In this document: piece by piece, positions 10,984-32,871 of the stretch
Position numbering within the stretch: position 1 is the stretch's first letter
Layout: each line of letters begins with the position of its first letter
Assembly: GCA_903930675.1 (NCBI GenBank)
Contig: CAIYZJ010000117.1
Coordinates: forward strand, 1-60,187
Direction: 5' to 3'
From: an uncultured Hyphomicrobiales bacterium
Lineage (GTDB): Bacteria; Pseudomonadota; Alphaproteobacteria; Rhizobiales; Beijerinckiaceae
DNA: 60,187 nucleotides
Translations under genes and position numbers: made by a program
Notes under the pieces: model-generated
What the model saw: only the letters and a program-made list of their open reading frames with translations
The model's database searches: none
What the model was told of the DNA's origin: nothing

Positions 10984-11406
10984 ATGAAAAACATGAACCA
11001 GATCACTACTCCCCCGCAAGCGTGCAGCACGGTCTATTTCGACGGAAGCTGCCCGCTGTGCAGCATCGAGATCGCGCATTATCAGGCCTGTCTGGGCGCG
11101 CAAGACATTGCCTTTGTCGACGTCTCCGATGCCGGTGCATCGATGGCCGCCGATCTTGACCGTGCGCAGGCAATGGCGCGCTTTCATGTGCGCCTGCCCG
11201 ATGGTTCCCTGCAATCGGGGGCAGCGGGTTTTGTGGCTCTATGGCTGGCCTTGCCGCGCTGGCGCTGGCTGGGGCGTTTGGCCGGACACCGGCGGGTCTT
11301 GCTGGTTCTTGAACGGCTTTACGTGCTTTTTCTGCCGTGGCGAGCGCGGATTGCGCGTCTTGTGTTCAGGCAGGCCAGATCCGCCCGCCCGTCATCGGCA
11401 CTTTGA
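10984..11406 (+). CDS. DCC-family thiol-disulfide oxidoreductase-like protein (DUF393)
   Basis: About 140 residues. The N-terminal VYFDGSCPLCSIEI is the DGxCxxC signature of the DCC/DUF393 family, which carries a thioredoxin-like CxxC pair. A Trp/Arg/Leu-rich C-terminal half (WLALPRWRWLGRL..., ERLYVLFLPWRARIARL) is typical of the family and membrane-proximal in character. The start is uncertain: ATG at 10984 or 10993, or GTG at 10951 with GAAGGA too close upstream. Function in the family is not well defined; a redox role is inferred from the cysteines. Its 3' end overlaps the convergent anmK gene by 41 bases. Confidence 0.75.
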   Translation: MKNMNQITTPPQACSTVYFDGSCPLCSIEIAHYQACLGAQDIAFVDVSDAGASMAADLDRAQAMARFHVRLPDGSLQSGAAGFVALWLALPRWRWLGRLAGHRRVLLVLERLYVLFLPWRARIARLVFRQARSARPSSAL

Positions 11407-12460
11407 CGCCCGTGGTGCCGGGCAGGCTGAGCGGCAGGCCCAATTTGGAGCGCACCGCCAGATAGCCGAAACATTGGGCCTCCAGAAAATCGCCGTCCCA
11501 ACCGATGCTTTCGACGGGGGCGACATGCACGGCGAGGCGTTGCGCGAGACCCTGCATGAAATGCAGATTGTTGCGTCCGCCACCCGCTACAAACCATTGC
11601 AGCGGCGGGGTCGGCACATGGTCAAGCGCGCGGCATGTGGCCTCGATGGTGAAGGCGGCAAGGGTGGCCAAACCATCATGCGGGGACAGGCTATCGACGA
11701 TTTTTGCGCGCTGGTGGAAGTCGTTGCGGTCCAGTGACTTCGGCGGGCGCGTGGCAAAAAACGGGTTGTCGAGCAAGCGGGCCAGCACCGTGCGGTTGAC
11801 CTGTCCGAGCTGGCTCAAACGTCCGCCCTCGTCAAAGGGAAGGCCGAAATGCTTGCGCACCCAATCATCGCACAATGCCGAGGCCGGACCCGTATCGAAA
11901 GCCAGAATGGTCGTGCCGTCGAGATAGGTGACATTGCCGACCCCGCCCCAATTCAGAATCATCACAGGCTGTTGCAGGCGGCTTGCCAGGGCATGATGGT
12001 AAACGGGCACCAGCGGCGCGCCTTGCCCGCCTGCTTTCACATCGGCGAGCCGGAATTGGTCAACGACCGAAATGCCGAGCTGTGCCGCCATGCGCCGTCC
12101 GTCGCCCAACTGGCGTGTAAAGCCCAATTCGGGCCGGTGATAAACCGTCTGGCCATGCAGGCCGATCAGCTCGATCTCTGTGCGGTTGATGTTGTGATGC
12201 TGGAGGAACTGGTCGATGGCCGCGCTGAAGGCGTCGGTCACCTCCTGTTCCAGTCCGAGCAACGGGTCCGACATCGCGCGGCTGGGGTCTTGCAGAAAAT
12301 CCAGCAAACGGTTCCGCAAGGGTTCGGGATAGGGGAGTGTGGCCCCGAAGCCTGCTTCTACAAGGGTTTGGCCATCGGTGCGCAACAGGGCAATGTCGAT
12401 GCCATCCATCGACGTGCCGCTGATGGTGCCGATGACGGTTCTGATCTTGCTGCTGAACAT
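11366..12460 (-). CDS. anmK: Anhydro-N-acetylmuramic acid kinase
   Basis: 364 residues of the AnmK family in the ASKHA fold. The N-terminal GTISGTSMDGID is the phosphate-binding loop, DQFRLADVKAGGQGAPLVPVYH and NWGGVGNVTYLDG are family blocks, FDTGPASALCDDWV contributes the catalytic aspartate, and VAGGGRNN is the adenosine motif. AnmK converts 1,6-anhydroMurNAc plus ATP to MurNAc-6-phosphate in peptidoglycan recycling; MurQ normally follows but is not in the window. The ATG at 12460 begins MFSSKIRTV. It is divergent from the SMP-30 lactonase and convergent with the DUF393 gene. The nearby RpiR regulator is of the same family as MurR, but the operon is not adjacent. Confidence 0.93.
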   Translation of the reverse strand: MFSSKIRTVIGTISGTSMDGIDIALLRTDGQTLVEAGFGATLPYPEPLRNRLLDFLQDPSRAMSDPLLGLEQEVTDAFSAAIDQFLQHHNINRTEIELIGLHGQTVYHRPELGFTRQLGDGRRMAAQLGISVVDQFRLADVKAGGQGAPLVPVYHHALASRLQQPVMILNWGGVGNVTYLDGTTILAFDTGPASALCDDWVRKHFGLPFDEGGRLSQLGQVNRTVLARLLDNPFFATRPPKSLDRNDFHQRAKIVDSLSPHDGLATLAAFTIEATCRALDHVPTPPLQWFVAGGGRNNLHFMQGLAQRLAVHVAPVESIGWDGDFLEAQCFGYLAVRSKLGLPLSLPGTTGVKVPMTGGRIWPA

Positions 12461-12637
12461 GCCTGTTATCCGTCCCTGTCTTGTCCGCTCTAGCGATAAA
12501 CCACTGCGCCAAATGGTGCAATTTCTATGTCCGGTTTCATTGCTCCATGCCTGCTCCACGGGTTTGCTTGTCGGGGTGTCTTGCGTCTGCGGGCGCGGGC
12601 TGGCATGATCAAAGCTGAAAAATTTGGAGGAATGCCG

Positions 12638-13519
12638 TTGCGTATCGATCATCCCGAGCTGACCACTGTCATCGACATCCCGTTGAAACTCGGTGAAGGT
12701 CCGTGCTGGTCGGCCGCAGAAAACGCGCTGTATTTTGTCGATATTCTGGCCCCCAAACTCTACCGCCTCGATCTTGCGGGCAAAGCCTTGCGCGAATGGG
12801 CCATGCCGAGCGACATCGGCAGTTTCGGTCTGGCCAAAGACGGCCGGATGGTGGTTGCGCTGCGTGACGGCGTTTACTGGTTCGATCCGGCCACCGAACA
12901 ATTGAGCCTGCTGGCGTGCCCCGAACCCGGCAATACAACCAATCGCCTCAACGACGGCAAAGTCGGCCCCGATGGCCGTTTCTGGGTCGGCTCGATGGAT
13001 GACCGCCCGACCAAGGAGCCGGTGGCTGCCCTTTATCGCATCGACACCGAAGGACGCTGCGACAAGATGGTGGATGGTCTGATCATTTCCAATGGTCTGG
13101 CATGGTCGCCCGATCACCGCACGATGTATCACTCCGACAGTCGCGGTCCTTTTGCCCAAGCCTTCGATTTCGATGTCAAAACCGGCGATCTTTCGCGCCA
13201 GCGCATCCTGCGGATGCTGCCCGAGGCCGAAGGGCGTCCCGATGGTGCGGCGTGCGATGCCGAGGGCTATTACTGGGCCGCCGGTGTCACCGCGGGCTGT
13301 CTGAACCGCATTGCCCCCGATGGCACGCTGGACCGAAAAGTCATGTTGCCGTTTCCGGCCCCGACCATGCCCTGCTTTGCCGGACCCGACATGAAAACCC
13401 TCTATGTGACCTCGCTGGCCAAGCAGGTCGACGGGCATGATTATGCCGGCACGATTGTCTCGTTCGCGGTGGATGTGCCCGGTGCGCCGGTGGCGCGCTT
13501 CGGCGAGCCTTTGGCCTGA
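12638..13519 (+). CDS. SMP-30/gluconolactonase/LRE-family sugar lactonase
   Basis: About 293 residues forming a six-bladed beta-propeller. The metal ligands of the family can be placed: Glu in LGEGPCWS, Asn in NRLNDGKVGPDGRFWVGSMD, Asn in SNGLAWSPD, and Asp in RPDGAACDAEG. Such enzymes hydrolyse aldonolactones (gluconolactone, arabinolactone, galactonolactone and others) with a divalent metal. The TTG at 12638 is chosen because GGAGG sits 6 bases upstream; ATG codons at 12605 and 12632 are poorer because the site overlaps or is absent. It is followed by the phosphatase gene 33 bases on. It faces the KDPG-aldolase operon, so a role in a sugar-acid pathway is plausible but unproven. Confidence 0.88.
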   Translation: MRIDHPELTTVIDIPLKLGEGPCWSAAENALYFVDILAPKLYRLDLAGKALREWAMPSDIGSFGLAKDGRMVVALRDGVYWFDPATEQLSLLACPEPGNTTNRLNDGKVGPDGRFWVGSMDDRPTKEPVAALYRIDTEGRCDKMVDGLIISNGLAWSPDHRTMYHSDSRGPFAQAFDFDVKTGDLSRQRILRMLPEAEGRPDGAACDAEGYYWAAGVTAGCLNRIAPDGTLDRKVMLPFPAPTMPCFAGPDMKTLYVTSLAKQVDGHDYAGTIVSFAVDVPGAPVARFGEPLA

Positions 13520-13552: not shown

Positions 13553-14104
13553 ATGTCTGACGATCTATCCGTCAATGGTGCCTTGCAAATTGACACGATA
13601 GCTCTGCCCAAGGGGGGCAGACTGGGTTTGGTGCATTGTCCGGGACGCTGTGGCTGGGATAGCCACAGCCGCCTCTGGGCCCGTAATCTCGATGAAGACC
13701 TGCAAGCGATCAAGGCTTTCGGGGCGTCGCATCTGGTCACGCTGATCGAGGAAAGCGAATTCGCGTTGTATGGCGTCGAAGACCTGCCCGGTCGTGTCGC
13801 AGAGCACGGCCTGATCTGGCATCACTGGCCGGTGGCCGATATGGCCGTGGCAGGCAGTGTGACGCGCCAGCGCATGGCACTGGAAGTGCCCGATCTGTTG
13901 CGCGATTTGCGCAATGACGGCGTGGCGGTGGTGCATTGCGCAGCGGGTCTGGGACGCACCGGCACCTTTGCCGCCCAATTATTGGTGACCTCCGGTCTGA
14001 CCCCGCAAAAGGCCATTGCGGCGGTGCGGCAGGCGCGTCCGGGAACGATTGAAACCGAGGCGCAGGAACAGGCCGTCTATCAGGCTTTGCTGCCGGTCTC
14101 CTGA
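13553..14104 (+). CDS. Dual-specificity-type protein phosphatase
   Basis: 183 residues. VVHCAAGLGRTGTFAA supplies the CX5R active site (His128, Cys129, Arg135), and HWPVADMAV supplies a likely general-acid Asp96. The layout resembles CDKN3/KAP-like cysteine phosphatases found in bacteria. The reaction is hydrolysis of phosphate monoesters, on phosphoproteins, phosphosugars or phosphoinositides; the substrate is unknown. GGAG lies before the ATG. It is transcribed with the SMP-30 gene and converges on the PfkB kinase gene, 11 bases apart. Confidence 0.85.
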   Translation: MSDDLSVNGALQIDTIALPKGGRLGLVHCPGRCGWDSHSRLWARNLDEDLQAIKAFGASHLVTLIEESEFALYGVEDLPGRVAEHGLIWHHWPVADMAVAGSVTRQRMALEVPDLLRDLRNDGVAVVHCAAGLGRTGTFAAQLLVTSGLTPQKAIAAVRQARPGTIETEAQEQAVYQALLPVS

Positions 14105-14115
14105 TGCTTTGAGGC

Positions 14116-15024
14116 TCAGGCGAATTGGCCCTCGAGCGCGTGTTCGATGGCGGCCAGTTCGGGGATCGAGCTTTGTGCCCCCAATTGCGTGCAGGCCAGA
14201 CTGCCTGCCGCTACCCCGCGTTGCAGGGCCCCTGTCAGGCCGAAGCCGCGATGCAGGGCGGCGGCAAAGGCCCCGCAAAAGGAATCGCCCGCAGCGGTCG
14301 TATCAAGCACGTCGACTTTCAGCGCGTCGATCTGTCTCCGGACACCGTCCGACCATGCCAGAACGCCCTGTTCGCCCATGGTGACAATGGTGGTGATGGC
14401 GCGGTCGCGGTCGAGCTGCATGGCAATCTCGTCGGGATTTGTTGCCACCATGCCCGATTGTCCGGCCAGCGAAAGAATTTCGCCCTCATTGGCAATCAGA
14501 ATGTCGATGTGGTCGAGCAAAGCGGGGTCGAGCCATCCGGCGGGAGCGATATTGAGAATCACTCTTGCCCCTTGCGCCTTGGCCCAGCGGGCAGCCGCAA
14601 GGGTTTGCGCATCGGGCAGTTCGCGTTGCAACAGCACCAGATCGGATGGCTCCAGAGTGAGGGCGGACAAGGCAGCAGCAGAAGCCAGCCGGTTGGCACC
14701 CGATGCCACCGTAATCGCATTTTCGCCCGCATCGCTGACCGCGATAAAGGCCGCACCGGTCGGGGCATCGACGCGCTGGATATGGGAGAGATCGACGCCC
14801 GCCTGTTCGAGCGGTTGCAGTCCGATTTGGGCGAAAGGATCATGGCCGACGGCCCCGATCATGCGGGTCGGCGCACCGGCACGCATGCAAGCCAACGCCT
14901 GATTACCGCCTTTGCCGCCTGCAAACACCTGATAATCGGGACCAAGCACGGTTTCGCCAGCCTGCGCAATATGGGCAACGCGGGTGACAAAATCGACATT
15001 GATGGAACCAAAGACGGTGATCAT
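14116..15024 (-). CDS. PfkB-family sugar kinase (ribokinase-like)
   Basis: 302 residues. The N-terminal MITVFGSINVDFV and GGKGGNQALACMRAGA are PfkB signature 1, and DTTAAGDSFCGAF (Asp241 to Asp247) is signature 2 with catalytic Asp247; the usual DTxGAGD has Ala for Gly. By overall look it is nearest to ribokinase. As the last gene of the amidohydrolase-RidA-PLP enzyme-aldolase operon, its natural substrate may instead be a 2-keto-3-deoxy sugar acid whose phosphate is split by the aldolase 13 bases upstream. That assignment is inference; ribose or another sugar cannot be excluded. Confidence 0.88.
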   Translation of the reverse strand: MITVFGSINVDFVTRVAHIAQAGETVLGPDYQVFAGGKGGNQALACMRAGAPTRMIGAVGHDPFAQIGLQPLEQAGVDLSHIQRVDAPTGAAFIAVSDAGENAITVASGANRLASAAALSALTLEPSDLVLLQRELPDAQTLAAARWAKAQGARVILNIAPAGWLDPALLDHIDILIANEGEILSLAGQSGMVATNPDEIAMQLDRDRAITTIVTMGEQGVLAWSDGVRRQIDALKVDVLDTTAAGDSFCGAFAAALHRGFGLTGALQRGVAAGSLACTQLGAQSSIPELAAIEHALEGQFA

Positions 15025-15037: not shown

Positions 15038-15688
15038 TCACGGATGGACGGTGCGCCAGCTTGTCACAAAATCGCGCGCACGCTTGCCGACCTCTTCGGC
15101 GGGAACACCGGGTTTATACAGCGAGGAACCGATACCCATGCCCGCCAGCGGCGTATCGCGATACTGTCGGGCCGTATCCAGTCCGACACCGCCGACCAGC
15201 AGCAGCCGCAAGGATTTGGGCAGCACCGCCGACAGCGCCCGGATGCCCGCCGGAGACATAAATTCACCTGGAAACAATTTGGCCAGATCGGCCCCCGTTT
15301 CATGCGCGACAAAGGCCTCGGTGGCGGTAAACACACCGGGTGCCGAAATCAGGCCCAACTGTTTGCTCTGCGCAATCACGGCTGCATTGCAATTGGGCGA
15401 GACAACCAGCGTGCCGCCATGGGCGTGCACCGCATTGACATCCTGTACACTCAGCACGGTACCCGCGCCGATCAGCGCGCGCCCTTCGAAATGGCGCGCC
15501 ATCATGCCGATGCTGGTCAGCGGATCGGGCGAATTCAGCGGCACCTCGATCAAGGTGATGCCTGCTGTCACAAGCGCTTCGCCGACCGCCACGACTTCGG
15601 ACGGGGTGATCCCGCGCAAGATCGCAATCAGCGGGCAACGGTTGAAATGCCGGTCGAAGGCCAGCCGGAGGGGATTGTGTGTGCTCAT
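15038..15688 (-). CDS. 2-dehydro-3-deoxy-6-phosphogluconate/galactonate aldolase
   Basis: 216 residues of the KDPG/KDPGal class I aldolase family. [21 protein letters not shown] (with the general-acid Glu48), [16 protein letters not shown] and the Schiff-base Lys137 in [10 protein letters not shown] are all present. The order and the VPLNSP and LFPGEFMSP wording look closer to DgoA (KDPGal aldolase) than to Eda. The enzyme splits a 2-keto-3-deoxy-6-phospho sugar acid to pyruvate and glyceraldehyde-3-phosphate. It is the fourth gene of a tight five-gene operon, with a kinase directly downstream and a PLP enzyme directly upstream, which together suggest catabolism of an amino-sugar acid or related compound. 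Confidence 0.92.
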
Positions 15689-15697: not shown

Positions 15698-16783
15698 TTA
15701 GACGATGCAGCCGCGCGCCGCTACCGGCCAGTCCCCGAGCAATTCGTGTCCGCGCACGACCACCAACCGGTCCACCATATTGACCACCACGCAGACATGG
15801 TTGGGGATGATGCGCACGACATCGCCGACCACCGGACGGTCATTGCAGGCCGAGAGGTCGAGAAAGCCGTGTTCCTCGGCAAATTGTGCGATCCGCGCCT
15901 GCGGATGTTCGAGGATGAGGCCGTACCCGTCGAGACCGCCGCCTGTATCGGAGGTCAATGTCTTCGAGCCCGAGTCGAGAATGCCGCGCTCGGCACCCGC
16001 GCGCGACACTACGGTGGCATAGACATTGAGTGCGCAATCATCGAGCGTCGCATGGCCGTTGCGCATCATCATCCGGTCGTTGAAAATGCAGGTGCCCGCG
16101 CGGTGTTCGGTCGCCGCTTTGATCTTGCCGAGATTGGCCAGATTGGGCGTGCCGCCGGAGGAGACCTCGTTGATCTCGATGCCCGCCTCGCGCAATCCGG
16201 CGCGGACGGTGGCAATGAAGTCTTCGGTCTCGGCCATTTTGCTTTCGGGCGGATACATCATCAGCCCTGCAAAAATCAGGTGCTTGTTGGCGGCAATCTG
16301 CTTGGCCAGATCAATCGCCTCTTGCGGGGTTTCGACACCGGCGCGCTTGCGGCCGGTATCGCATTCCACCATCACTTCGAGCGGGCGTCCGGCAATGATG
16401 CCGGCTTCGGGCAGGCCGTCAAGCACGGTCTGGTTGTCGCAAGCTACCCGCATTTTGGCGCGTTTGAGCAATTGGCCGAGACGGCCGATTTTCTGTTCGC
16501 CGAGCAGATTGTAGCTGATGAAAATATCGTCGATTCCGGCATCGACCATCACCTCGGCCTCGCCAATTTTCTGGCAGGTAATGCCCTTGGCGCCCGCTTC
16601 GATCTGCATCTTGGCGATGACCGGGCTTTTATGGGTTTTGATATGCGGACGGTTGGCCACGCCCACGGCATCGCACATGGCCTGCACGCGGGCAATATTG
16701 TTTTCAACCACGTTGAGATCGATCACCATGGCGGGCGTGCCATAGTCGCGGGCGATCTGCGCCTTCAATTGTGACAGGCCCAT
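15698..16783 (-). CDS. PLP enzyme of the D-serine dehydratase / D-threonine aldolase family
   Basis: 361 residues, fold type III (alanine racemase-like N-terminal barrel). The PLP lysine is Lys49 in NRPHIKTHKS. The C-terminal metal site reads PNHVCVVVN, giving His329 and Cys331. As I recall, eukaryote-type D-serine dehydratases use a His-x-Cys zinc pair whereas D-threonine aldolases use His and Asp, so this protein looks more like a dehydratase/ammonia-lyase than an aldolase. Possible substrates are D-serine, D-threonine, D-hydroxyaspartate or a 2-amino-2-deoxy sugar acid such as D-glucosaminate. Its neighbour RidA would clear the enamine released by such an elimination. It is the third gene of the operon, 9 bases before the aldolase. 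Confidence 0.87.
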   Translation of the reverse strand: MGLSQLKAQIARDYGTPAMVIDLNVVENNIARVQAMCDAVGVANRPHIKTHKSPVIAKMQIEAGAKGITCQKIGEAEVMVDAGIDDIFISYNLLGEQKIGRLGQLLKRAKMRVACDNQTVLDGLPEAGIIAGRPLEVMVECDTGRKRAGVETPQEAIDLAKQIAANKHLIFAGLMMYPPESKMAETEDFIATVRAGLREAGIEINEVSSGGTPNLANLGKIKAATEHRAGTCIFNDRMMMRNGHATLDDCALNVYATVVSRAGAERGILDSGSKTLTSDTGGGLDGYGLILEHPQARIAQFAEEHGFLDLSACNDRPVVGDVVRIIPNHVCVVVNMVDRLVVVRGHELLGDWPVAARGCIV

Positions 16784-16809: not shown

Positions 16810-17271
16810 TTAGTTGCGGATCAGCAGGATGGCTTCGATTTCAACCGACATGCGGTTGGGCAGCGAGCCCATGCCGACAGCCGAGCGGGCATGGCGTCCG
16901 GCCTCGCCCAGCACTTCGACAAACAGGTCGGAGCAGCCGTTGATGACCTTGGGATGATCGGAAAAATCAGGCTCGGCATTGACCATGCCCAGCAGCTTCA
17001 CCACCGCTTCGATGCGCGACAGATCGCCCACGGCGGACTTGGTGGCAGCCAGCAGGTTGAGGCCGGTCAGTCTGGCTTCCTGATAGGCTTCTTCGATGGT
17101 GATATCGCGGCCCAGCCGTCCGACCCGATAGGTGCCGTCAGCACGCTTGGGGCCCTGACCGGACAGATAGAGCAGATTGCCTGCCCAGCGGAAAGGCACA
17201 TAATTGGCCACCGGAACCGGCATGGCAGGCAAAGTCAGCCCGAGGGCTTCCAGACGTTGTTCGGGTGTCAT
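16810..17271 (-). CDS. RidA (YjgF/YER057c/UK114)-family enamine/imine deaminase
   Basis: About 153 residues. The family core is visible: YVPFRWAGNLLYLSGQGP, TIEEAYQEARLTGLNLLAA, then ARSAVGMGSLPNRMSVEIEAI, which keeps the substrate-binding Arg and the Glu near the end. The longer form resembles the YjgF_endoribonc subgroup. RidA proteins hydrolyse 2-aminoacrylate and other enamine/imine intermediates produced by PLP-dependent dehydratases. It sits directly between the amidohydrolase (10 bases) and the PLP enzyme (26 bases), so it probably serves that enzyme. The ATG at 17271 has AGGA at good spacing; the ATG at 17277 is an alternative. Confidence 0.9.
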   Translation of the reverse strand: MTPEQRLEALGLTLPAMPVPVANYVPFRWAGNLLYLSGQGPKRADGTYRVGRLGRDITIEEAYQEARLTGLNLLAATKSAVGDLSRIEAVVKLLGMVNAEPDFSDHPKVINGCSDLFVEVLGEAGRHARSAVGMGSLPNRMSVEIEAILLIRN

Positions 17272-17281
17272 GCTCATTTCC

Positions 17282-18415
17282 TCACGCTTTGTGCCACAAG
17301 GCTCCGTTGATGATGACATGGGAGGCCAGTAGACGGGTTTTGCTCGTCAACTGCTCGCCTGTCGAGTCGACATAGTCGAACGCGCCTTCGCGCCAGTCAA
17401 TCACCGTCGCATCGCCCGCGCTGCCGGCTTTGAAGGTGCCGAGATCGGGGCGGTTCAGCGCATGGGCGGCATTCTGGGTGGCCGAGCGGATGACCTCGAC
17501 CAGCGGCATGCCGAGTTCGATGAATTTCGACATGGTGGTCAACAAATCGAAGGCCGGACCGTCAATGCACAGCGCATGAACATCGGAGGAGATGCAATCG
17601 GGCATGAAATTGTTTTTCAGCATGGTGCGGGCGGTGGCAAAGGAGAACGAGCCCATGCCGTGGCCGATGTCGAAAATCACGCCGCGCTTGCGCGCTTCCA
17701 GCACTTCGGGAATCACACCGCCCGCGGCTGTGGCCGGCGAATTGGGGAAGGGGCGGAAGCAATGGGTCAAAATATCGCCCTTGCGCAAGCGGGCCAGCAC
17801 ATCCGGCAAAGTGGGCGGCGGATAGTCGATATGCACCATCAGCGGCATGCCGACCTCGTCGGCGACCTGACGGGCAATGTCGAGCGGCACGATGCCGGAA
17901 TTGCCCGAGGCATGGAAGCCCACCCGCACCTTGATGCCAGCCAGCGTATCGCGATGCCCACGCGCGACATCGACGGTATCGAGCGGCGCCATCAACCGCA
18001 AATCGCCGCTTTCACCCACCATGATGCGCTTGGAAAAGCCGTAAATACCGGCAAATGACACGTTCAGATAGGCAATCACCCGCACGGGCGAGGGCTTGAT
18101 CACATGTTCGAGAAAACCGGGATAATTGCCCGGTCCGGCCGATCCGGTATCGACCACCGTGGTGCAACCGCCTTTGCCGAGAATGACAGGATCAACCCCT
18201 AAAGAAGTCCCGCCCCAATAGGTATGTGTGTGCAGATCGATCAGGCCGGGCGTGACAATCTTGCCTTCGACATGTTCGACCGAAGCGGCCTGTGCGGCCA
18301 GCCCGTCGCCGACGGCCACGACTTTGCCTGCTTGAAACGCCACATCGGTGATACGGTCGATCGCTTGGGAAGGATCGATCACACGACCTCCGGTCAGAAC
18401 AAGATCAAATGACAT
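17282..18415 (-). CDS. Amidohydrolase/deacetylase-family metallohydrolase (COG3964)
   Basis: 377 residues, amidohydrolase superfamily. GLIDLHTHTYWGG is the HxH metal motif, followed by a carboxylated-Lys candidate in LAGIKVRVGF, the histidines in MVHIDYPP and TLHC-like DILTHCFRP, and Asp in CISSDVHAL. It is often mis-annotated as dihydroorotase. From memory, COG3964 members of Agrobacterium and Ochrobactrum hydrolyse acetyl-(R)-mandelate and N-acetyl-D-amino acid esters, which fits deacylation of a D-configured substrate. It is the first gene of the leftward operon, so it likely starts the pathway by freeing an amine for the PLP enzyme. It is divergent from the ABC importer across a 221-base regulatory region. 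Confidence 0.87.
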   Translation of the reverse strand: MSFDLVLTGGRVIDPSQAIDRITDVAFQAGKVVAVGDGLAAQAASVEHVEGKIVTPGLIDLHTHTYWGGTSLGVDPVILGKGGCTTVVDTGSAGPGNYPGFLEHVIKPSPVRVIAYLNVSFAGIYGFSKRIMVGESGDLRLMAPLDTVDVARGHRDTLAGIKVRVGFHASGNSGIVPLDIARQVADEVGMPLMVHIDYPPPTLPDVLARLRKGDILTHCFRPFPNSPATAAGGVIPEVLEARKRGVIFDIGHGMGSFSFATARTMLKNNFMPDCISSDVHALCIDGPAFDLLTTMSKFIELGMPLVEVIRSATQNAAHALNRPDLGTFKAGSAGDATVIDWREGAFDYVDSTGEQLTSKTRLLASHVIINGALWHKA

Positions 18416-18636: not shown

Positions 18637-20196
18637 ATGTCGACACCGTTTTCCATTCTGACTCATTTAAACCGCAGGCATGTGCTGGGTGCAATCGGTC
18701 TGGCCACTGTGGCGGCAGTCGGCGCACCACTGGCCGCGCTCGCGCAGACCAGCGTCAACCTTGCGATGATCGGCGAACCGCAGTCGCTTGACCCGATGGC
18801 GTCGACTGCCGATCTGGTCTCCATCATCATGCAGCATGTTTACGAGCCGCTTTACACGTTTGACGACAAATGGGTTGTCAAGCCGATGCTTGCCTCCGAC
18901 ATGCCCAAAATCAGCGCCGACGGCAAAACCTACACCATCGAGATCCGCAAAGGCGTCAAACTCCATAACGGCCGCGAACTCGATTCCGGGGATGTCGTTG
19001 CCTCGCTCAAACGCTGGGTCGAGATGACCCCGCGCGGCAAGGCTCTGGGCAAGAGTATCACCGGCATTGTCGCCAAGGACGGCAATACAGTCGAAATCGC
19101 CCTGTCGGATGTCCAGCCTGCTTTGCTGGCGCATCTGGCCCTGCCATCGGGCTTTGCCGGGATCATGGCCAAGGAATCGATTGCCACACCGCTTGTCGAA
19201 TTCGTCGGAACCGGTCCCTATAAATTCCGCGAGCGCAAGCCCGACCAGTTCGTCGTGCTCGTCAAGCATGACGGCTATAATGCCCGCTCGGAAGCACCAA
19301 GCGGCTATGCGGGCAAGCGCGAAGCCAAGGTGGATGAATTGCGGTTTATTCCCGTGCCCAATGCCAATACCCGCACCGAAGGCGTTATTGCAGGCCAATA
19401 TCACTTTGCCGATCAGCTGCCTGTGGAAAGCAACAAGAAAGTCACAGCGGCCGGCAATGTCAGTCCTGTGCTGACCATGCCTTATGGCTTCCCGTATTTC
19501 CCCACCAATACAGTACAGGGCCCGATGAAGGATGTGAAAATCCGTCAGGCCTTCCAGATGGCTTTGAATGCCGAAGAAATCCTGATGGCCGGTTTCGGTG
19601 ATCCGAAATTCTATGCTGTCAGCGCCGAGCATTTCCCCAAGGGCTCGCCCTTCTATTCCGAGGCAGGCAAGGGCCAGTACAACAAGGGCGATGCGGCAGG
19701 AGCCAAAAAACTGCTGGCGGAAGCCAAATATGACGGCACTCCGATCCGCATCCTCAATTCCAAACAATACGACTATCATCACCGCATGGCTCTGGTCATG
19801 GCCGAACAGCTGAAGGCTGCGGGCTTTGCCGTGACACTGGATGTGGTCGATTGGGCCACCTTGGTGCAGCGTCGTGCCGATCCGGCAGTATGGGATATTT
19901 ATGTGACCCATTCCGCCTTCCTGCCCGAGCCGATGCTGTCGCCACCCCAATTGGGTGACGGTGCCCCCGGGGGCTGGAAGTCACCTGCAAAGGATGCGGC
20001 TCTGGCCGCCTTCAACTCCGAGCCCGATGCAGCTAAGCGCGGTGCCTTGTGGGCCAAGGTGCAACAGACTGTCTATGACGAAGTGCCCTATATCCGCGTC
20101 GGCAATTTCGCAGCCCTCTCTGGCGTGTCGAACAAGATGAAGGGCTATACGCCAATGCCATGGCCGGCCTTCTGGAATGTGAGCGTCACACCCTGA
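18637..20196 (+). CDS. ABC transporter solute-binding protein, family 5 (Dpp/Opp type)
   Basis: 519 residues, SBP_bac_5. The leader has twin arginines (LNRRHVLGAIG) and a hydrophobic run ending AALAQ, so Tat export is likely; cleavage is near residue 36. VNLAMIGEPQSLDPMAST, VYEPLYTFDDKW, YTIEIRKGVKLHNGREL and GTGPYKFRERKP are family landmarks. The periplasmic protein captures a peptide, oligosaccharide or amino acid derivative for the permease encoded downstream. It is the first gene of the rightward operon and is followed by a hairpin that may limit read-through, the usual way binding protein is made in excess. The substrate is not readable from sequence; the divergent catabolic genes point to an N-acylated D-amino acid or amino-sugar acid. 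Confidence 0.9.
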   Translation: MSTPFSILTHLNRRHVLGAIGLATVAAVGAPLAALAQTSVNLAMIGEPQSLDPMASTADLVSIIMQHVYEPLYTFDDKWVVKPMLASDMPKISADGKTYTIEIRKGVKLHNGRELDSGDVVASLKRWVEMTPRGKALGKSITGIVAKDGNTVEIALSDVQPALLAHLALPSGFAGIMAKESIATPLVEFVGTGPYKFRERKPDQFVVLVKHDGYNARSEAPSGYAGKREAKVDELRFIPVPNANTRTEGVIAGQYHFADQLPVESNKKVTAAGNVSPVLTMPYGFPYFPTNTVQGPMKDVKIRQAFQMALNAEEILMAGFGDPKFYAVSAEHFPKGSPFYSEAGKGQYNKGDAAGAKKLLAEAKYDGTPIRILNSKQYDYHHRMALVMAEQLKAAGFAVTLDVVDWATLVQRRADPAVWDIYVTHSAFLPEPMLSPPQLGDGAPGGWKSPAKDAALAAFNSEPDAAKRGALWAKVQQTVYDEVPYIRVGNFAALSGVSNKMKGYTPMPWPAFWNVSVTP

Positions 20197-20212
20197 TCAG
20201 GCTTTGACGATC

Positions 20213-20241
20213 GGGCGGCGGCAAATCCGCCGCCCGCTTTT
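20213..20241 (+). terminator. Intercistronic hairpin/attenuator after the binding-protein gene
   Basis: A perfect 9-bp GC stem (GGGCGGCGG / CCGCCGCCC) with a CAAAT loop is followed by GCTTTTGTCTT. It lies between the binding-protein gene and the first permease gene (139-base gap) and is likely a partial terminator or an mRNA-stabilising structure. Confidence 0.7.
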
Positions 20242-20335
20242 GTCTTGTCCCTTTAATTTATTTTTTTCCGGATGATTTGCGGCGCATCACTCTGGCGCGA
20301 TCGGTCTTGTTGCAGGCGAGGGGCGGAGTTCGGCG

Positions 20336-21280
20336 ATGGGACGGTTTTTTCTGCGCAGACTGGCCGGTTTGCTGATCGTGATGGCCCTTGTGGCCACCAT
20401 GGTGTTTTTTCTGACGCGTCTGGCCCCCGGTGATCCGGCGGCTTTGATGCTGGGCGATCAGGCCACGGTGGAAGATATTGCCAAATTGCGCGCCACCTAT
20501 GGGCTGGACAAACCCTTGCTGGTGCAATTCGGATTGTGGGTGAAGGAAATTGTGTCGGGCAATCTCGGCCAGTCGATTTTTCTGCAACGCCCTGTCACCC
20601 AAGCGTTGAGCGAGCGGGCCGAGCCGACCTTTTTCCTCGCGCTGTTTTCTGTCTCGATTGCCGCATTGATCGGGATCCCCGCAGGCATTGCCTCGGCGGT
20701 CTGGCGCGGGCGGTGGCTGGATCAGGCGTTGAGCGGCTTGGCGATGGTGGCCGCCAATATTCCGAGTTTCTGGCTCGGGCTGATTTTCATCCAGATTTTT
20801 GCCGTCAAATTCGGCTGGTTTCCGGTGGCGGGCTATGGCGATCCCGGCGCTTCCTTTCTGGTGCGCTTGCAGCATCTGGTTTTGCCCGCCAGCGTGTTGG
20901 GCATTGTCAATTCCGCGCTGATCACCCGATTCACCCGCGCCAGCATGCTTGACATTCTGAGCGAGGATTTTATCCGCACCGCCCGCTCCAAAGGTCTGGC
21001 CGAGCGGGTGGTGATCTGGCGTCATGCCTTCGGCAATGCGCTGATCCCCGTGATCACCGTGGTGGGGCTGACGGCGGCTTTGCTGGTTGGTGGTGCAATT
21101 GTTACCGAAACCGTATTCGGCCTGCCCGGCATCGGCAATCTGGTGGTCTCCGCCGTGCTGCGGCGTGATTATCCGGTCATTCAGGGCGCGCTGATCGTGG
21201 TGGCGGCCGTCTATGTGCTGATCAATCTGGCGGTCGATCTGATCTATGCTCTGGCCGACCCGCGCGTGAGAGCAGGCTGA
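20336..21280 (+). CDS. ABC transporter permease, DppB type
   Basis: 314 residues with about six membrane segments. The N-terminal FFLRRLAGLLIVMALVATMVFFLTRLAPGDPA is characteristic of DppB/OppB permeases, and the EAA loop reads ARSKGLAERVVIWRHAFGNALIPVITV. It forms the inner-membrane channel with the next gene product. GGCGGAG precedes the ATG; the stop overlaps the next start (TGATG). Confidence 0.93.
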   Translation: MGRFFLRRLAGLLIVMALVATMVFFLTRLAPGDPAALMLGDQATVEDIAKLRATYGLDKPLLVQFGLWVKEIVSGNLGQSIFLQRPVTQALSERAEPTFFLALFSVSIAALIGIPAGIASAVWRGRWLDQALSGLAMVAANIPSFWLGLIFIQIFAVKFGWFPVAGYGDPGASFLVRLQHLVLPASVLGIVNSALITRFTRASMLDILSEDFIRTARSKGLAERVVIWRHAFGNALIPVITVVGLTAALLVGGAIVTETVFGLPGIGNLVVSAVLRRDYPVIQGALIVVAAVYVLINLAVDLIYALADPRVRAG

Positions 21281-22146
21281 TGGAAGCCGCGAGCATGGCG
21301 CAGGCCAATCCTGCCCGCCTGTTTTTCAAACGGCTGTTCCGGCGCAAGCTGGTTCTGGTCGCCACAATCGTGCTGGGCGTGATCGTACTGGCGGCGTTGC
21401 TGGCACCATGGGTGGCACCCTTCAAGCCCGATGCCATGCGGATGGCCCGCCGCTTGAAACCGCCGAGCGATATCAACTGGCTGGGCACCGACGAGTTTGG
21501 CCGCGATATCCTCTCGCGCATCATTTTCGGCGGGCGCGCCTCGCTCGGGATCGGAGCTGCTGTGGTTGTGTTGTCGATGAGCGTCGGCACCGTGTTCGGC
21601 CTGCTGGCAGGCTATGTCAAAGGGCTTGATGCGCTGATCATGCGTTTGGCCGATGCGATGATGGCACTGCCCGATATTCTGCTGGCGATTTTTCTGGTGG
21701 CGATTCTGGGGCCCTCGGCGGGCAATGTCGTGCTGGCTTTGTCGATTGTCTATGCGCCGCGCGTGGTGCGGGTGGTCAGGGCTTCGACGCTGGTGGTGAG
21801 TGAATTGCCGTTTGTCGAGGCGGCGCGGGCTTTGGGGGTCTCGACCTTTCGAATTCTGCGCGTGCATATCCTGCTCAATGTCGCATCCCCCATTCTGGTC
21901 CAGGCGACCTTTATTTTTGCCTATGCGGTGCTGGCCGAAGCAGGCCTGTCCTTCTTGGGGGCCGGTGTGCCGCCCGAAGTGCCGACATGGGGCACGATGA
22001 TCGCATCGGGCCAGCAATATGCCGATGATGCTTTCTGGGTTGTGCTGTTTCCCGGTCTGGCGATTGTTCTGGCTGCTTTGTCACTGCAACTGATCGGCGA
22101 TGGCTTGCGCGATATGCTCGATCCCAAATTGCGCAAGGCCTTGTGA
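21280..22146 (+). CDS. ABC transporter permease, DppC type
   Basis: 288 residues. WLGTDEFGRDILSRIIFGGRASLGIG is the DppC/OppC hallmark after the first membrane helix. The EAA loop is AARALGVSTFRILRVHILLNVASPILV, followed by EAGLSFLGAGVPPEVPTWGTMI. It pairs with the DppB-type subunit. The annotated ATG overlaps the upstream stop by one base; an internal ATG at 21295 is an alternative start. Confidence 0.93.
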   Translation: MEAASMAQANPARLFFKRLFRRKLVLVATIVLGVIVLAALLAPWVAPFKPDAMRMARRLKPPSDINWLGTDEFGRDILSRIIFGGRASLGIGAAVVVLSMSVGTVFGLLAGYVKGLDALIMRLADAMMALPDILLAIFLVAILGPSAGNVVLALSIVYAPRVVRVVRASTLVVSELPFVEAARALGVSTFRILRVHILLNVASPILVQATFIFAYAVLAEAGLSFLGAGVPPEVPTWGTMIASGQQYADDAFWVVLFPGLAIVLAALSLQLIGDGLRDMLDPKLRKAL

Positions 22147-23150
22147 CCATGACCGACCAACAGCAAACCCCTTTGTTGCAGATCGACGGGCTCTCGGTAT
22201 CCTTTCGCACCGAAACCGGCACTGTCACGCCGGTGCGCGGCGTGTCGCTTAACGTGCAGGCGGGCGAGACGCTGGCTCTGGTGGGGGAATCGGGGTCGGG
22301 CAAATCGGTCACCAGCCTTGCCGTGATGGGCCTGCTGCCGCGGCCTTCCGGTTTTATTGCGGCGGGCCAACTGCGCTATCGCACCCGCCAGAACGAGATG
22401 CTCGATCTGGCTGCGCTCGATCAGGACCGCTTGCGGCAATTGCGCGGCATCGAAATGGCGATGATCTTTCAGGAACCGATGACCAGCCTCAATCCGGTGC
22501 TGACCATCGGCGAACAGATTGCGGAATCGGTGCGGCTGCATCTTGGCCTTGATGGATCGGCCACCCGCAAGCGCGTCAGGGATATGCTCGATCTGGTCGA
22601 GATCCCCGATGCCGGCCGGCGGATGGATGATTATCCGCACCAGATGTCCGGCGGGATGCGCCAGCGGGTGATGATCGCGCTGGCAATGTCGTGCAATCCG
22701 GCTTTGCTGATCGCGGACGAGCCGACGACGGCACTGGATGTCACCATTCAGGCGCAAATTCTGGCCCTAATCGACCGCTTGCGCCGCGAAACCGGCATGG
22801 CGGTGTTGTTCATCACCCATAATCTCGGCGTGGTCTCGGAAATCGCCGATCGCGTGGCGGTGATGTATGGCGGGCAGGTGGTGGAAAGCGGGGAGACCGC
22901 GCCGCTGTTTCGTGCCCCGCGCCACCCTTACACCAAAGCCTTGCTGTCCTGCCTGCCGGCGCGGGCGGTTGTGCGTGACGGACGGCGGGTCATTCAGGCC
23001 ATTGCGGGCCAGCCCGGTGATTTCGGCCCCGCTTGCGCCTTTGCGCCGCGCTGTCCGATGGCGCAAGCCCAATGCGGGCTGACGCCGCCTGCCCTGGAAA
23101 GTGATGGGCAAGGCGATATCCGCTGCCTGCGCTGGAGGGAATGGGCATGA
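22143..23150 (+). CDS. ABC transporter ATP-binding protein, DppD type
   Basis: 335 residues. [18 protein letters not shown] is Walker [20 protein letters not shown] the ABC signature, and [20 protein letters not shown] Walker B. The C-terminal oligopeptide-transport extension carries the cysteine cluster ([14 protein letters not shown]) that binds an iron-sulfur cluster in related proteins. A GTG at 22143 overlaps the preceding stop (GTGA); an ATG at 22149 is the alternative start. Confidence 0.93.
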
Positions 23151-24109
23151 CAAAACCTTTGTTGTCTGTCTCGCATCTGGGCAAGGAATTTGTCACCGCC
23201 AAGGGCCGGTTGCGGGCGGTCGAGGATGTGAGTTTCGAGATTGCACCGGGCGAGGCCTTCGGACTGGTCGGTGAATCGGGCTCCGGCAAAAGCACCATCG
23301 GGCGGCTGGTTCTGCGGCTGATTGCGGCCAGCGGCGGGCAGGTGAGTTTTGACGGGCAGGCAATTGACGGCTTGTCCGAACGGCAGTTGAAGCCGTTTCG
23401 CGCACAGGCGCAGATGGTGTTTCAGGATCCCTTCGCCTCGCTCAATCCGCGTTTGCGGGTGCGCGATATTATCGGCGAGGCACTCGATACCCATGGCATT
23501 GCCCAAAACCGCCGCAGCGAGCGGATCGGTGAATTGCTGGAAATGGTCGGTTTGCAAAAATCCCATGCCGACCGGTTCCCGCATGAATTTTCCGGCGGGC
23601 AGCGCCAGCGCATCGGCATTGCGCGGGCTTTGGCGGTCGAGCCGAAACTGATCATCGCCGACGAGCCGGTCTCCGCACTCGATGTCTCGGTGCAGGCCCA
23701 GATCATCAATCTGCTGCAGGATTTGCGCGCCCGCTTCGGGCTGGCCTTGCTGTTCATCTCGCATGATCTCGATATTGTCGAATTGCTGTGCGAGCGGGTG
23801 GCCGTGCTCTATCTCGGCCGCGTAATGGAAATGGGGCCGACCGAGCGCGTGATGCGCCATCCGCGCCATCCTTATACCCGCGCTTTGCTGGCCGCCTCGC
23901 CCAAAGCCGATCCCGACGGACCCAAAGCGCGGCGGCTGATCATGGGGGATATTCCCTCGCCGCTTGATCCGCCTTCGGGCTGCGTGTTCCGCACCCGTTG
24001 CCCGCAGGCCCAAAGCCTGTGCGCGCAGGAGCGGCCCGTGTTGAGACAGGAGCAGGACGGCCATCAATTCGCCTGCCATTTCGATCTGGCAGCCGGGGAG
24101 GCGATCTGA
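23147..24109 (+). CDS. ABC transporter ATP-binding protein, DppF type
   Basis: About 320 residues. [18 protein letters not shown] is Walker A, FSGGQRQRIGIARALAVEP the signature and LIIADEPVSALDVSVQAQII Walker B; the C-terminal oligopeptide extension has CVFRTRCPQAQSLC. The ATG at 23147 overlaps the previous stop (ATGA) and has GAGGGA 7 bases upstream. It completes a two-permease, two-ATPase importer. The stop codon adjoins the regulator gene start. Confidence 0.93.
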   Translation: MTKPLLSVSHLGKEFVTAKGRLRAVEDVSFEIAPGEAFGLVGESGSGKSTIGRLVLRLIAASGGQVSFDGQAIDGLSERQLKPFRAQAQMVFQDPFASLNPRLRVRDIIGEALDTHGIAQNRRSERIGELLEMVGLQKSHADRFPHEFSGGQRQRIGIARALAVEPKLIIADEPVSALDVSVQAQIINLLQDLRARFGLALLFISHDLDIVELLCERVAVLYLGRVMEMGPTERVMRHPRHPYTRALLAASPKADPDGPKARRLIMGDIPSPLDPPSGCVFRTRCPQAQSLCAQERPVLRQEQDGHQFACHFDLAAGEAI

Positions 24110-25081
24110 ATGGAGGAGACTCCGATCCACGCCCCTGCAGAGACGGCGTTCCATGCCGAGAGCGCGGATGCACCCGATGTGCTGCGCGCCATCCGTCTGG
24201 CGATGGAGAGCCTGTCGAGCGGGCAGCGGCGGATTGCCGAACTGGTGCTGGACAATCCCGCTTGGGCGGTCAACACCAATGTCGAGGAACTGGCCCGCGC
24301 CGCCGAAGTCAGTGCGCCCACCATTGTGCGCTTTTGCCGCACGGTCGGCTGCGAGGGGGTCAAGGATTTCAAGCTGAAACTAGCGGGTGATCTGGCGCGC
24401 GGCACGCCCTTTCTGCATCGCGGGGTCAGCGAGGGTGACAGTGCCCACGATGTCGTGCGCAATGTGGTGGGCAGTCTGACGGCGGTCTTGTCGGAATGGC
24501 AAAGGCTGATCGACCCCGCCTTGATCGACCATGCTGCCAAGGCCATCAACGGCGCGCGCCGGATTGATTGTTACGGCACGGGCGCGACATCGAATTTTCT
24601 TGCGCAGGATTTGCAGGCCCGTCTGTTCCGGCTCGATCTGAACACCACGGCCTATTCGGATGCGCATTTCCAGCTGGTGGCCGCGGCCACGCTGACCCCT
24701 GCCGATGTGGTGGTGGCGATTTCCTTTGTCGGGCGCATGCCCTCTTTGCTGGAAGTGGTGCGCCTGGCCAAAGCGCGCGGGGCCACCATCATCGCCATCA
24801 CGCGCGGGCACACGCCGCTGGCCGCTTTGGCCGATATCGTGCTGGCCAGCGATGTGCCGCGCGATGCCACCATGCGGGTCGGCACCGAGGCCTATGTGGT
24901 GCAATTGCTGGTGATCGAGATGCTGATGGTGATGACCGGACTGTTGCGCGGCCCCGCTGTGATTGGCCGCTTGCGGGAAATCCATGACATTTTGCAAACC
25001 CATGGCGTCGACAGCGACGATCCCTCTTTGCTGCATTGGGGTTGGCGGCCCTTGCTGGGCGAGGACGAGGCGCAAGTTTAA
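24110..25081 (+). CDS. RpiR/MurR/HexR-family transcriptional regulator
   Basis: 323 residues. The N-terminal HTH_6 domain (about 25-105) reads AIRLAMESLSSGQRRIAELVLDNP and then VEELARAAEVSAPTIVRFCRTVGCEGVKDFKL. A SIS phosphosugar-binding domain follows (about 140-275), with GTGATSNFLAQDLQARL, ISFVGRMPSLLEVVRLAKARGATIIAIT and an LAxxAD-like stretch. SIS domains in this family sense phosphorylated sugars or sugar acids. GGGGAGG precedes the ATG, one base after the ATPase stop, so it is co-transcribed with the importer and probably controls both divergent operons. KDPG-like intermediates are plausible effectors given the aldolase in the regulon; this is inference. Confidence 0.9.
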   Translation: MEETPIHAPAETAFHAESADAPDVLRAIRLAMESLSSGQRRIAELVLDNPAWAVNTNVEELARAAEVSAPTIVRFCRTVGCEGVKDFKLKLAGDLARGTPFLHRGVSEGDSAHDVVRNVVGSLTAVLSEWQRLIDPALIDHAAKAINGARRIDCYGTGATSNFLAQDLQARLFRLDLNTTAYSDAHFQLVAAATLTPADVVVAISFVGRMPSLLEVVRLAKARGATIIAITRGHTPLAALADIVLASDVPRDATMRVGTEAYVVQLLVIEMLMVMTGLLRGPAVIGRLREIHDILQTHGVDSDDPSLLHWGWRPLLGEDEAQV

Positions 25082-25189: not shown

Positions 25190-26551
25190 ATGTCGTTTTT
25201 AACCGATTTGATTTCGAGTATTTCACAACGCGGCCGTGAACTGGTCGGGCAGGCGCAATGGGTCGGCGGGCGGCGTGATCTGCCGCCGGTCGCCGACATG
25301 TGCGAGGCTTTGCTGTCGAGCCGCGGCGAAGCCTCCGGCGTGGCTTTGGCGACAATCATTCTCGATCGCTATGCCCTTATGGATGATGCGGAGAAATGCG
25401 GCTTCCTGTGCATGCTGGTCGATCGGTTCGGCGCCGACGAAGATGGCTTGAAGCAGGCCATTGCCGCCTATCAGACTTCGCCAGACCACCAGCATCTGAT
25501 GGCCCTGCATCAGGCCGCAGAGCCGCGCCGTCAGGAATTGATCCGCCGTTTGAACCTGTCTTCGGGTGGCACACAAAATCTGGTGCGGATGCGCGAGGAT
25601 TTGTTCCGTTTCGAGAAGACCCATCCCGGATTAACCGCACTGGATGCCGATTTCCGGCATTTGTTCTCCTCGTGGTTCAATCGCGGTTTTCTGGTGCTCA
25701 GGCCGATTGACTGGCAGACGCCCGCCAATATTCTCGAAAAAATCATCCGCTACGAGGCCGTTCATGCCATCAAGAGTTGGGATGATCTGCGCAGCCGTCT
25801 GGCCCCGCCCGATCGCCGTTGCTTTGCCTTCTTCCATCCGCAGATTGTCGATGATCCGCTGATCTTTGTCGAAGTTGCTTTGACCGCCGATATCCCCGCC
25901 TCGATCACCGATGTGCTGCGCGAGGAGCGGGTACCGCTTGATCCGAAAAAGGCGACAACGGCGGTGTTCTATTCCATTTCGAATTGTCAGGAGGGGTTGC
26001 GCGGCATTTCCTTCGGCAATTTCCTGATCAAACAGGTGGTGGAAGAACTGACCCGTCAGGGGTTCGGCCTGAAAACCTTTGTGACACTGTCGCCCGTGCC
26101 CGGTTTTGCGGCTTGGCTGGGACGCGAGCGCAAACAGGCCGAATCCGAATTTGTCGCACCGGAGATGAAACAAGCGCTCGATTTGCTCGATGATCCGGCT
26201 TGGGCGGGCAATCCTGTCTCGGTCGAGCTTCTCACGCCGTTGTTGCATGGCTTGGCCGCGCGCTATCTGTTGCAGGCGCGCACGCCATCGGGGCGGGTGA
26301 TCGATCCGGTCGCCCGTTTCCATCTCGGCAATGGCGCGCGGCTGGAGCGCATCAATGTGATGGCCGATCCCTCCCCCAAAGGGCTGGCGCAGTCCCATGC
26401 GGTGATGGTCAATTATCTCTATGATCTCGATATGATCGAGGCCAACCACGAGGCTTTCAGCAACAAGAACGAGGTTGTGGCCTCTTCCGGCGTGCGACAA
26501 TTGTTGCGGCATAAAGCCCCCCGCGAGACCCGTAACAGCCATTTGTTGTAA
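25190..26551 (+). CDS. Malonyl-CoA decarboxylase
   Basis: 453 residues matching the MCD family throughout. An N-terminal helical domain is followed by a GNAT-like catalytic domain. Landmarks are ILEKIIRYEAVHAIKSWDDL, FFHPQIVDDPLIFVEVAL, FYSISNCQEGLRGISFGNFLIK, KTFVTLSPVPGFAAWL and YLYDLDMIEANHEAF. The enzyme converts malonyl-CoA to acetyl-CoA and CO2. In rhizobia the MatA homologue sits with matB (malonyl-CoA synthetase) and matC (malonate carrier); neither is adjacent here, so it may serve to remove malonyl-CoA rather than support malonate growth. It has its own upstream region with a palindrome and is apparently monocistronic. Confidence 0.92.
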   Translation: MSFLTDLISSISQRGRELVGQAQWVGGRRDLPPVADMCEALLSSRGEASGVALATIILDRYALMDDAEKCGFLCMLVDRFGADEDGLKQAIAAYQTSPDHQHLMALHQAAEPRRQELIRRLNLSSGGTQNLVRMREDLFRFEKTHPGLTALDADFRHLFSSWFNRGFLVLRPIDWQTPANILEKIIRYEAVHAIKSWDDLRSRLAPPDRRCFAFFHPQIVDDPLIFVEVALTADIPASITDVLREERVPLDPKKATTAVFYSISNCQEGLRGISFGNFLIKQVVEELTRQGFGLKTFVTLSPVPGFAAWLGRERKQAESEFVAPEMKQALDLLDDPAWAGNPVSVELLTPLLHGLAARYLLQARTPSGRVIDPVARFHLGNGARLERINVMADPSPKGLAQSHAVMVNYLYDLDMIEANHEAFSNKNEVVASSGVRQLLRHKAPRETRNSHLL

Positions 26552-31754: not shown

Positions 31755-31762
31755 CCTCTCAT

Positions 31763-32867: not shown

Positions 32868-32871
32868 GCCC

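Follow-up and report, generated by a model that had tools for sequence, protein, structure and literature searches.

A His-x-Cys PLP enzyme of the D-TA/DSD family, probably a dehydratase, in a proposed amino-sugar-acid operon of a Hyphomicrobiales bacterium

The question raised by this locus is whether a PLP enzyme whose nearest solved relatives are aldolases works as an aldolase or as a dehydratase, and on which substrate. The gene lies at 15698..16783 on the minus strand of the window, i.e., the whole stretch of 60,187 nucleotides from an uncultured Hyphomicrobiales bacterium that was analysed here, and is an open reading frame of 361 amino acids with an ATG start. Its product is a fold-type III PLP enzyme of the D-TA/DSD family with a His-x-Cys (HxC) metal motif. 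The initial annotation had expected databases to label it more or less as a D-threonine aldolase, and this proved right: of 25 listed from 269 matching plasmid records, 23 carry the label 'D-TA family PLP-dependent enzyme', the other two being one record without annotation and one without a listed gene.

Metal site and loop of the PLP enzyme

The window enzyme consists of an N-terminal Ala_racemase_N domain (PF01168, 75.6 bits, cut-off 24.1) and a C-terminal 'putative serine dehydratase' domain (PF14031, 79.9 bits, cut-off 22), both passing the Pfam gathering score. With these domains, the PLP lysine in an RPHxK motif and the metal histidine, it belongs to the fold-type III D-TA/DSD family, and it is the only PF14031 match in the source genome at E 0.001. 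Its AlphaFold2 model has a mean pLDDT of 91.2 and a pTM of 0.89.

The division into His/Cys dehydratases and His/Asp aldolases that had been drawn at the outset is true of the solved enzymes (3wqc and 3anu are HxC, 4v15 and 6qkb are HxD). According to the available part of PMC4401734, the metal ligands are His347 and Asp349 in AxDTA and a His and a Cys in both chicken D-serine dehydratase and 3LLX, the chicken enzyme binding Zn by these two residues beside the PLP. The motif PNHVCVVVN, with His329 and Cys331, is present near the C-terminus of the window enzyme as first described, and structure and sequence alignments place Cys331 on the metal ligand Asp349 of AxDTA (4v15), the position that had been assumed for it. 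In the family alignment, K59, H347, and D349 of AxDTA map to K49, the PLP Schiff-base lysine (codon at 16637..16639), H329, a predicted metal ligand (15797..15799), and C331, the predicted ligand that replaces the Asp (15791..15793; all on the minus strand). Cys331 also aligns with the cysteine of D-threo-3-hydroxyaspartate (D-THA) dehydratase (3wqc) that is altered in the C353A mutant, whose structure carries the title 'in the metal-free form'.

The family sample comprised 223 members from 222 loci, including one duplicate pair (L036/L066), and was drawn from three sources: the window locus with 33 regions from 39 matches in other genomes, of which the six with E above 1e-13, the lowest-ranking ones, were omitted; 80 named GTDB loci, the best 80 of 593; and a phylum draw of 398 genomes, 95 of them with a match, which gave 115 matches including the window's own gene (108 new regions, 6 already in the sample, 1 own). 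By metal motif, 164 members are HxC, 58 are HxD and one is YxD. The YxD member (L133:17625-18725, from an Anaerolineaceae genome) has its metal histidine replaced by Tyr and shares its locus with an HxC paralogue. All members but L111, which is cut by a contig end, entered the family alignment (222 of 223), together with five solved chains. The PLP lysine column holds K in 163/163 HxC and 59/59 HxD/YxD rows, and the metal column holds Cys in 163/163 HxC rows, a class defined by that residue. PNHxC is found in 20/20 relatives of at least 43% identity, while the 13 more distant ones comprise 12 HxD and 1 HxC. Because of this column and the conservation in all 20 closer relatives, Cys331 is not a chance substitution.

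A second site differs as well. Chicken D-serine dehydratase and 3LLX both lack His193, the base of AxDTA, as stated in the available text of PMC4401734. In our alignment, the His193 column holds a His in 57/59 HxD/YxD rows versus 3/163 HxC rows, and a gap in 129/163 HxC rows, the window enzyme included. A short turn, YPPESK (residues 177-182; 16238..16255, minus strand), stands there in place of the aldolase loop, and YPPE or a similar stretch replaces the lost loop in the displayed members of the window clade too. Thus, of the features of an HxD aldolase, the window enzyme has neither Asp as second metal ligand (Cys331 instead) nor the catalytic base His193 (a gap and no loop), and the alignment predicts for it the His and Cys ligands of an HxC dehydratase. 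Metal residue and His193 loop, two separate sites, thus point the same way.

Phylogenetic analysis agreed with this division. In a quick tree of 102 rows, the metal residue changes a single time, the YxD row being taken as HxD. A careful tree of 59 rows was computed with the metal-motif and His193-loop columns removed; it omitted the long L064, L133_1, and L211, the OngC-like L277, L278, and 3gwq (see below), L063, and 36 more for thinning. Here a branch supported at 100/100 sets all HxD rows apart from the rest, a split recovered in 100% of 200 bootstrap trees, and the window enzyme lies outside the HxD side. Its own clade of 25 rows (support 100/97) stands, like the known dehydratases 3wqc and 3anu, opposite the HxD side; a sister relationship of the window clade to these dehydratases appears solely in the quick tree (SH-aLRT 95), which is rooted on the OngC-like rows and 3gwq by a very long outgroup branch (3.49). 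The outgroup likewise has HxC, which suggests that this motif is the ancestral one and that HxD arose from it. The window enzyme is very probably a beta-eliminating dehydratase and not a threonine aldolase.

RidA genes beside HxC genes

RidA proteins are reported to be enamine/imine deaminases acting on products of PLP enzymes (as cited in the available part of PMC9537276). The gene preceding the PLP gene (16810..17319, minus strand) encodes a RidA-family protein (PF14588/PF01042, 94.1 and 44.4 bits; best solved match 3d01) that we propose as enamine/imine hydrolase partner of the enzyme. In its predicted extent it shares 38 bases with the preceding gene; were translation to begin at 17271, the two would lie 10 bases apart.

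A search with an iterated RidA profile, seeded from the neighbours of HxC genes, and a distance limit of 3 kb found RidA near 27/65 HxC versus 0/49 HxD genes of the phylum draw (Fisher p 1.4e-8, a value that ignores kinship) and near 61/164 versus 0/58 over all loci of the sample. When the sample was reduced to representatives at 68% identity, the figures were 27/66 HxC versus 0/31 HxD/YxD (p 4.5e-6, again ignoring kinship). Directly adjacent RidA genes on the same strand accompany 15/65 HxC and 0/49 HxD genes of the phylum draw. Since the metal label changes once on the tree, this association amounts to few independent events, and the 38/65 HxC genes of the phylum draw without RidA within 3 kb count against the link. 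Several HxC branches have RidA, in different forms: the PF14588 type in the window operon and a protein of about 128 amino acids in a second clade (clusters 13 and 5). RidA also adjoins D-THA dehydratase-like genes. A check with PF01042 covered 40 of the 46 HxD-bearing genomes of the draw, with 42 of the 49 HxD genes. Each of the 40 has 1-15 RidA-like genes; among the matches listed, none comes as close as 3 kb to an HxD gene. The first reading had held that the metal residue and the adjacent RidA favour beta-elimination, and both the missing His193 and the bias of RidA towards HxC genes (27/65 versus 0/49) speak for it.

The operon and its proposed pathway

Five genes follow each other on the minus strand, coding for a COG3964 amidohydrolase, RidA, the HxC enzyme, a KDPGal/KDPG-type aldolase, and a PfkB kinase; the junctions comprise one overlap and otherwise gaps of at most 26 bases. 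The first gene (17282..18415) encodes a COG3964-type amidohydrolase (NF006689, 405 bits, cut-off 371), a proposed N-deacylase with the loosely named solved relatives 2ogj, 8wzy, 8je0, and 2ics; N-acetyl-D-amino acids and acetyl-(R)-mandelate are substrates of some COG3964 members. The aldolase gene (15038..15688), 9 bases after the PLP gene, matches NF006600 with 256 bits (cut-off 207). As a second, stronger PF01081 aldolase exists elsewhere in the genome (C192, 225.7 versus 81.4 bits), the operon copy looks dedicated. The last gene (14116..15024) encodes a PfkB sugar kinase (PF00294), whose best NCBIfam match is the ribokinase model with 268.9 bits (below the cut-off of 299.65) versus 70.7 bits for KDG kinase, which counts against a KDG role.

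Divergent from the operon, a peptide/opine-type ABC transporter is encoded on the plus strand (18637..24109; SBP_bac_5, two permeases, two ATPases, according to domain matches), followed by a MurR/RpiR-family regulator (24110..25081, plus strand; PF01418 and PF01380). The arrangement of operon, transporter, and regulator is kept in four other genomes of the genus (L032-L035), i.e., in five genomes in total. On the other side, a gene at 12599..13519 (plus strand) encodes an SMP-30/gluconolactonase-like protein (PF08450, 278.7 bits), a possible aldonolactonase that is kept in the genus and whose membership in the pathway is uncertain. A PTP/DSP-like phosphatase gene (13553-14104, plus strand) adjoins it and is also kept in the genus, with just 48% identity in L035. 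Farther out lie a malonyl-CoA decarboxylase gene after the regulator (25190-26551, plus strand), such a gene being present in the loci of the relatives L070, L079, L086, and L089 as well, and a second peptide-type ABC transporter (30153-35788, plus strand) near an M20 peptidase/amidohydrolase (28727-29890, minus strand).

Considered as a whole, the locus probably encodes a metal/PLP D-amino-acid dehydratase working in the pathway of an amino-sugar-acid operon. An N-acyl substrate would be taken up by the ABC transporter and deacylated by the COG3964 amidohydrolase. In the dehydratase, Lys49 would hold the PLP, and His329 and Cys331 would hold a divalent metal beside it, probably Zn. The substrate, a 3-hydroxy D-amino acid, would form an aldimine with the PLP and then give up its alpha proton; the metal, bound to the 3-OH, would turn it into a leaving group, and water would be lost without any C-C bond being broken. 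That water would leave, and that the C-C bond would not be cleaved, is suggested by the missing His193, the proposed base for the 3-OH in aldolases. The released enamine or imine would lose ammonia, aided by the RidA protein encoded just before.

The first reading went no further than a dehydratase, but the operon points beyond D-serine to an amino-sugar acid, and the substrate is probably a 2-amino-2-deoxy-hexonate. D-glucosaminate or its galacto epimer would yield KDG or KDGal, which the PfkB kinase may phosphorylate and the aldolase may split into pyruvate and glyceraldehyde 3-phosphate, all of these steps being putative. A sugar-acid product is suggested since it would require a KDG kinase and a KDPG aldolase, which pyruvate or 2-oxobutyrate would not. 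The galacto epimer is considered because the operon aldolase is of the KDPGal type, and the epimer is not fixed in the name because the aldolase reaches the KDPGal model while the kinase is more ribokinase-like.

As to the origin of such a compound, no match to LPMO10 or GH20 was obtained in the own genome (98.39% complete), so that chitin was rejected as a source there, chitin oxidation of the ong type (see below) being unlikely, and any hexosaminate would need an outside origin. Peptidoglycan recycling was set aside as main reading because the MurQ and NagA models matched the source genome only below cut-off and anhydro-N-acetylmuramic acid kinase is encoded outside the operon. This AnmK gene (11366-12451, minus strand; 450.8 bits, cut-off 352) lies near the operon.

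In the window clade, taken as 58 loci of at least 575 bits (57 different proteins, with the own locus and one duplicate included), RidA accompanies 20 genes, COG3964 17, and both together 16. Aldolase and kinase lie within 3 kb in 5 of these 58 loci, all of one genus, and these low numbers count against the proposed reading. The Bradyrhizobium loci among the best 80 of 593 have no homologue of the window RidA, COG3964 protein, aldolase, or kinase. In Microvirga lenta (L071), a culturable relative, the COG3964, RidA, and HxC genes follow one another. Other relatives in the window clade have COG3964, RidA, and the HxC enzyme together without aldolase or kinase, some with a gene of the CN_hydrolase family (cluster c24), and they lend weight to the strongest alternative, which we regard as rather unlikely all the same. 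In that view, the enzyme would dehydrate a simple D-amino acid (D-serine, D-threonine, or a 3-hydroxy-D-amino acid) released from peptides or from N-acyl or N-carbamoyl derivatives, and aldolase and kinase would serve another sugar. It would suit the peptide-type transporter and the COG3964 amidohydrolase alongside, the HxC pair is common to D-THA dehydratase and chicken D-serine dehydratase, and OngC also accepts D-Ser and D-Thr (PMC9537276, available part). Against it stand the compact operon that joins aldolase and kinase to the HxC gene in each of the five sampled genomes of the genus, the apparently dedicated aldolase copy beside another KDPG-type aldolase in the genome, products such as pyruvate that require neither enzyme, and the recurrence of KDG-type kinases, once with an aldolase, beside HxC genes elsewhere.

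This last point is illustrated by a locus of Anaerolineales (L113, Chloroflexota), in which an HxC enzyme about 49-51% identical to that of the window is encoded in the order M19 dipeptidase, RidA, HxC enzyme, aldolase, and PfkB kinase. The kinase matches the KDG/KDGal kinase model best (264 bits, under the cut-off of 440), and the aldolase reaches 169.6 bits where the KDPGal model requires 207, and 169.3 bits where the eda model requires 156.05. In L129 (274.6 bits) and L199 (264.4 bits; cut-off 400), the gene that immediately follows the HxC gene encodes a KdgK-like kinase. Within 3 kb, an aldolase is found near 6/164 HxC genes (five of the genus and L113) and a PfkB kinase near 9/164, each versus 0/58 for HxD.

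The second HxC clade (clade II) has sugar ABC transporters, SDR, RpiR, RidA, M81 metallopeptidase, and GH20 beta-N-acetylhexosaminidase as neighbours in varying subsets, which would be the company expected of an oxidative amino-sugar pathway. An HxC enzyme with a similar neighbourhood is annotated on a plasmid of Rhizobium sp. Pop5 (L282). The clusters of L282, L123, L127, L142, and L143, with subsets of GH20, sugar ABC transporter, SDR, Gfo/Idh, RpiR, RidA, M81, and HxC enzyme, likely represent an oxidative route for GlcNAc among rhizobia and related bacteria. Next to or near their clade-II HxC gene, 12 of 101 loci encode a conserved protein of some 163 amino acids that has no Pfam match (cluster c19, e.g., L134:9434-9925), and its gene is frequently placed between those of RidA and M81; in L281 and L282, an annotated 'hypothetical protein' near the HxC enzyme is of similar size.

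Known relatives and meaning for the family

The closest known parallel is the ong pathway of Pseudoalteromonas prydzensis, as far as described in the available parts of its publications. OngB deacetylates N-acetyl-D-glucosaminate (PMC9537276; structure in PMC12017989), OngC, a fold-type III PLP enzyme, forms KDG and ammonia from D-glucosaminate and deaminates D-serine and D-threonine as well, and KdgK phosphorylates KDG, so that OngB, OngC, and KdgK together lead from N-acetyl-glucosaminate to KDG-6-P (PMC9537276). The RidA protein OngD is required in vivo, for a reason that the available text of this paper leaves unknown. Like the window enzyme, OngC is a fold-type III PLP enzyme, and its cluster likewise includes RidA, a deacetylase, a KDG kinase, and an RpiR regulator (PMC9537276). 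The window has the corresponding neighbourhood of deacylase, RidA, sugar kinase, and RpiR, the last lying beyond the divergent transporter genes. It differs in that the deacylase is of the COG3964 type and not a D-aminoacylase, the transporter is a peptide-type ABC and not an SSS system, and the aldolase lies inside the operon.

In four draw genomes of a single genus (L277-L280), a D-aminoacylase-like gene, RidA, and RpiR accompany a distant HxC member with a TSHPC motif, which we take to be OngC-like by gene context only. Kinase and aldolase lie within about 6 kb in L277, L279, and L280, and L277 and L278 have a GH20 match. The HxC member of L277 and L279 has 427 amino acids and is nearest to 3gwq. 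In the quick tree, a long starred branch separates 3gwq and these context-defined OngC-like rows, L277 and L278, from the remaining 99. Orthology of the window enzyme with OngC was rejected, as these context-defined rows form a distant branch. The window enzyme would, by analogy, work like OngC from outside the OngC branch. Within the journals covered (most subscription journals being outside coverage), we found no paper on the HxC clade of the window enzyme.

Two solved dehydratases share its HxC motif. D-THA dehydratase of Delftia sp. HT23 (3wqc) has the His-x-Cys pair, an aligned PLP lysine, and no aldolase His193, and L249 carries an almost identical gene next to RidA; D-THA dehydratase differs in its 29% identity, a THAGSSY loop where the window enzyme has YPPESK, and its place in a separate clade. 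Chicken kidney D-serine dehydratase (3anu) has the same fold (Z 37.9), but is eukaryotic, only 28% identical, and also in a separate clade.

Sequence and fold comparison rank the aldolases above these dehydratases, which counts against the dehydratase reading. The top solved sequence relatives are the aldolases 7dib and 4v15, and the fold search placed 4v15 (Z 41.9) before 3wqc (38.8) and 3anv, chicken DSD (38.5), the aldolase top matches having 34-36% identity in fold alignments. D-threonine aldolase of Alcaligenes xylosoxidans (4v15), the closest solved fold with 36% identity, shares the PLP lysine and the metal histidine, but has Asp349 for Cys331, possesses the catalytic His193, and sits in the HxD clade. 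BhcC, the 3-hydroxy-D-aspartate aldolase of Paracoccus denitrificans (6qkb), has the same fold and provides the sole NCBIfam match of the window enzyme, but is HxD with His193, and the score of 182.7 bits falls short of the cut-off of 690 and bears on BhcC only. An enzyme in which Cys replaces Asp without a change of reaction, i.e., a D-threonine or 3-hydroxy-D-aspartate aldolase, is improbable to our mind, since His193 and its loop are absent, the tree parts the window enzyme from the HxD rows at 100/100, and the neighbouring RidA has no obvious role in aldol cleavage; the D-threonine aldolase annotation was rejected on Cys331, the absent His193, and the tree, despite aldolases being the nearest folds. 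A racemase, epimerase, or mixed-activity enzyme, as the Ala_racemase_N domain and the alanine racemases lower in the fold list might suggest, is very unlikely, given a PF14031 domain with full metal pair, which to our knowledge does not occur in alanine racemases, and a drop in Z from 36.6-41.9 for solved D-TA/DSD members (except 3gwq, 30.9) to about 25 for alanine racemases.

With the window enzyme read as a dehydratase, a wider picture may be drawn tentatively, in which the HxC branch of the 'D-TA family' would unite a great many so far unstudied dehydratases for amino-sugar acids, from Alphaproteobacteria and a part of the Chloroflexota. This branch might have been recruited independently of gammaproteobacterial OngC for 2-keto-3-deoxy sugar acids, repeatedly with RidA and a KDG-type kinase and in places with a KDPG-type aldolase, and loss of the aldolase loop might have opened the pocket for a sugar-length substrate. 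If the main reading of the window enzyme is right, one residue and one loop separate dehydratase from aldolase within the lumped 'D-TA family', and a good number of genes would need new names; at 1e-40 there are matches in 269 plasmid records, counted irrespective of metal motif. The role of RidA (OngD) in dehydratase chemistry, left unknown in the available part of PMC9537276, would become testable. There would also be a second, separately assembled route from an N-acyl amino-sugar acid to pyruvate, outside the Gammaproteobacteria where the first was found.
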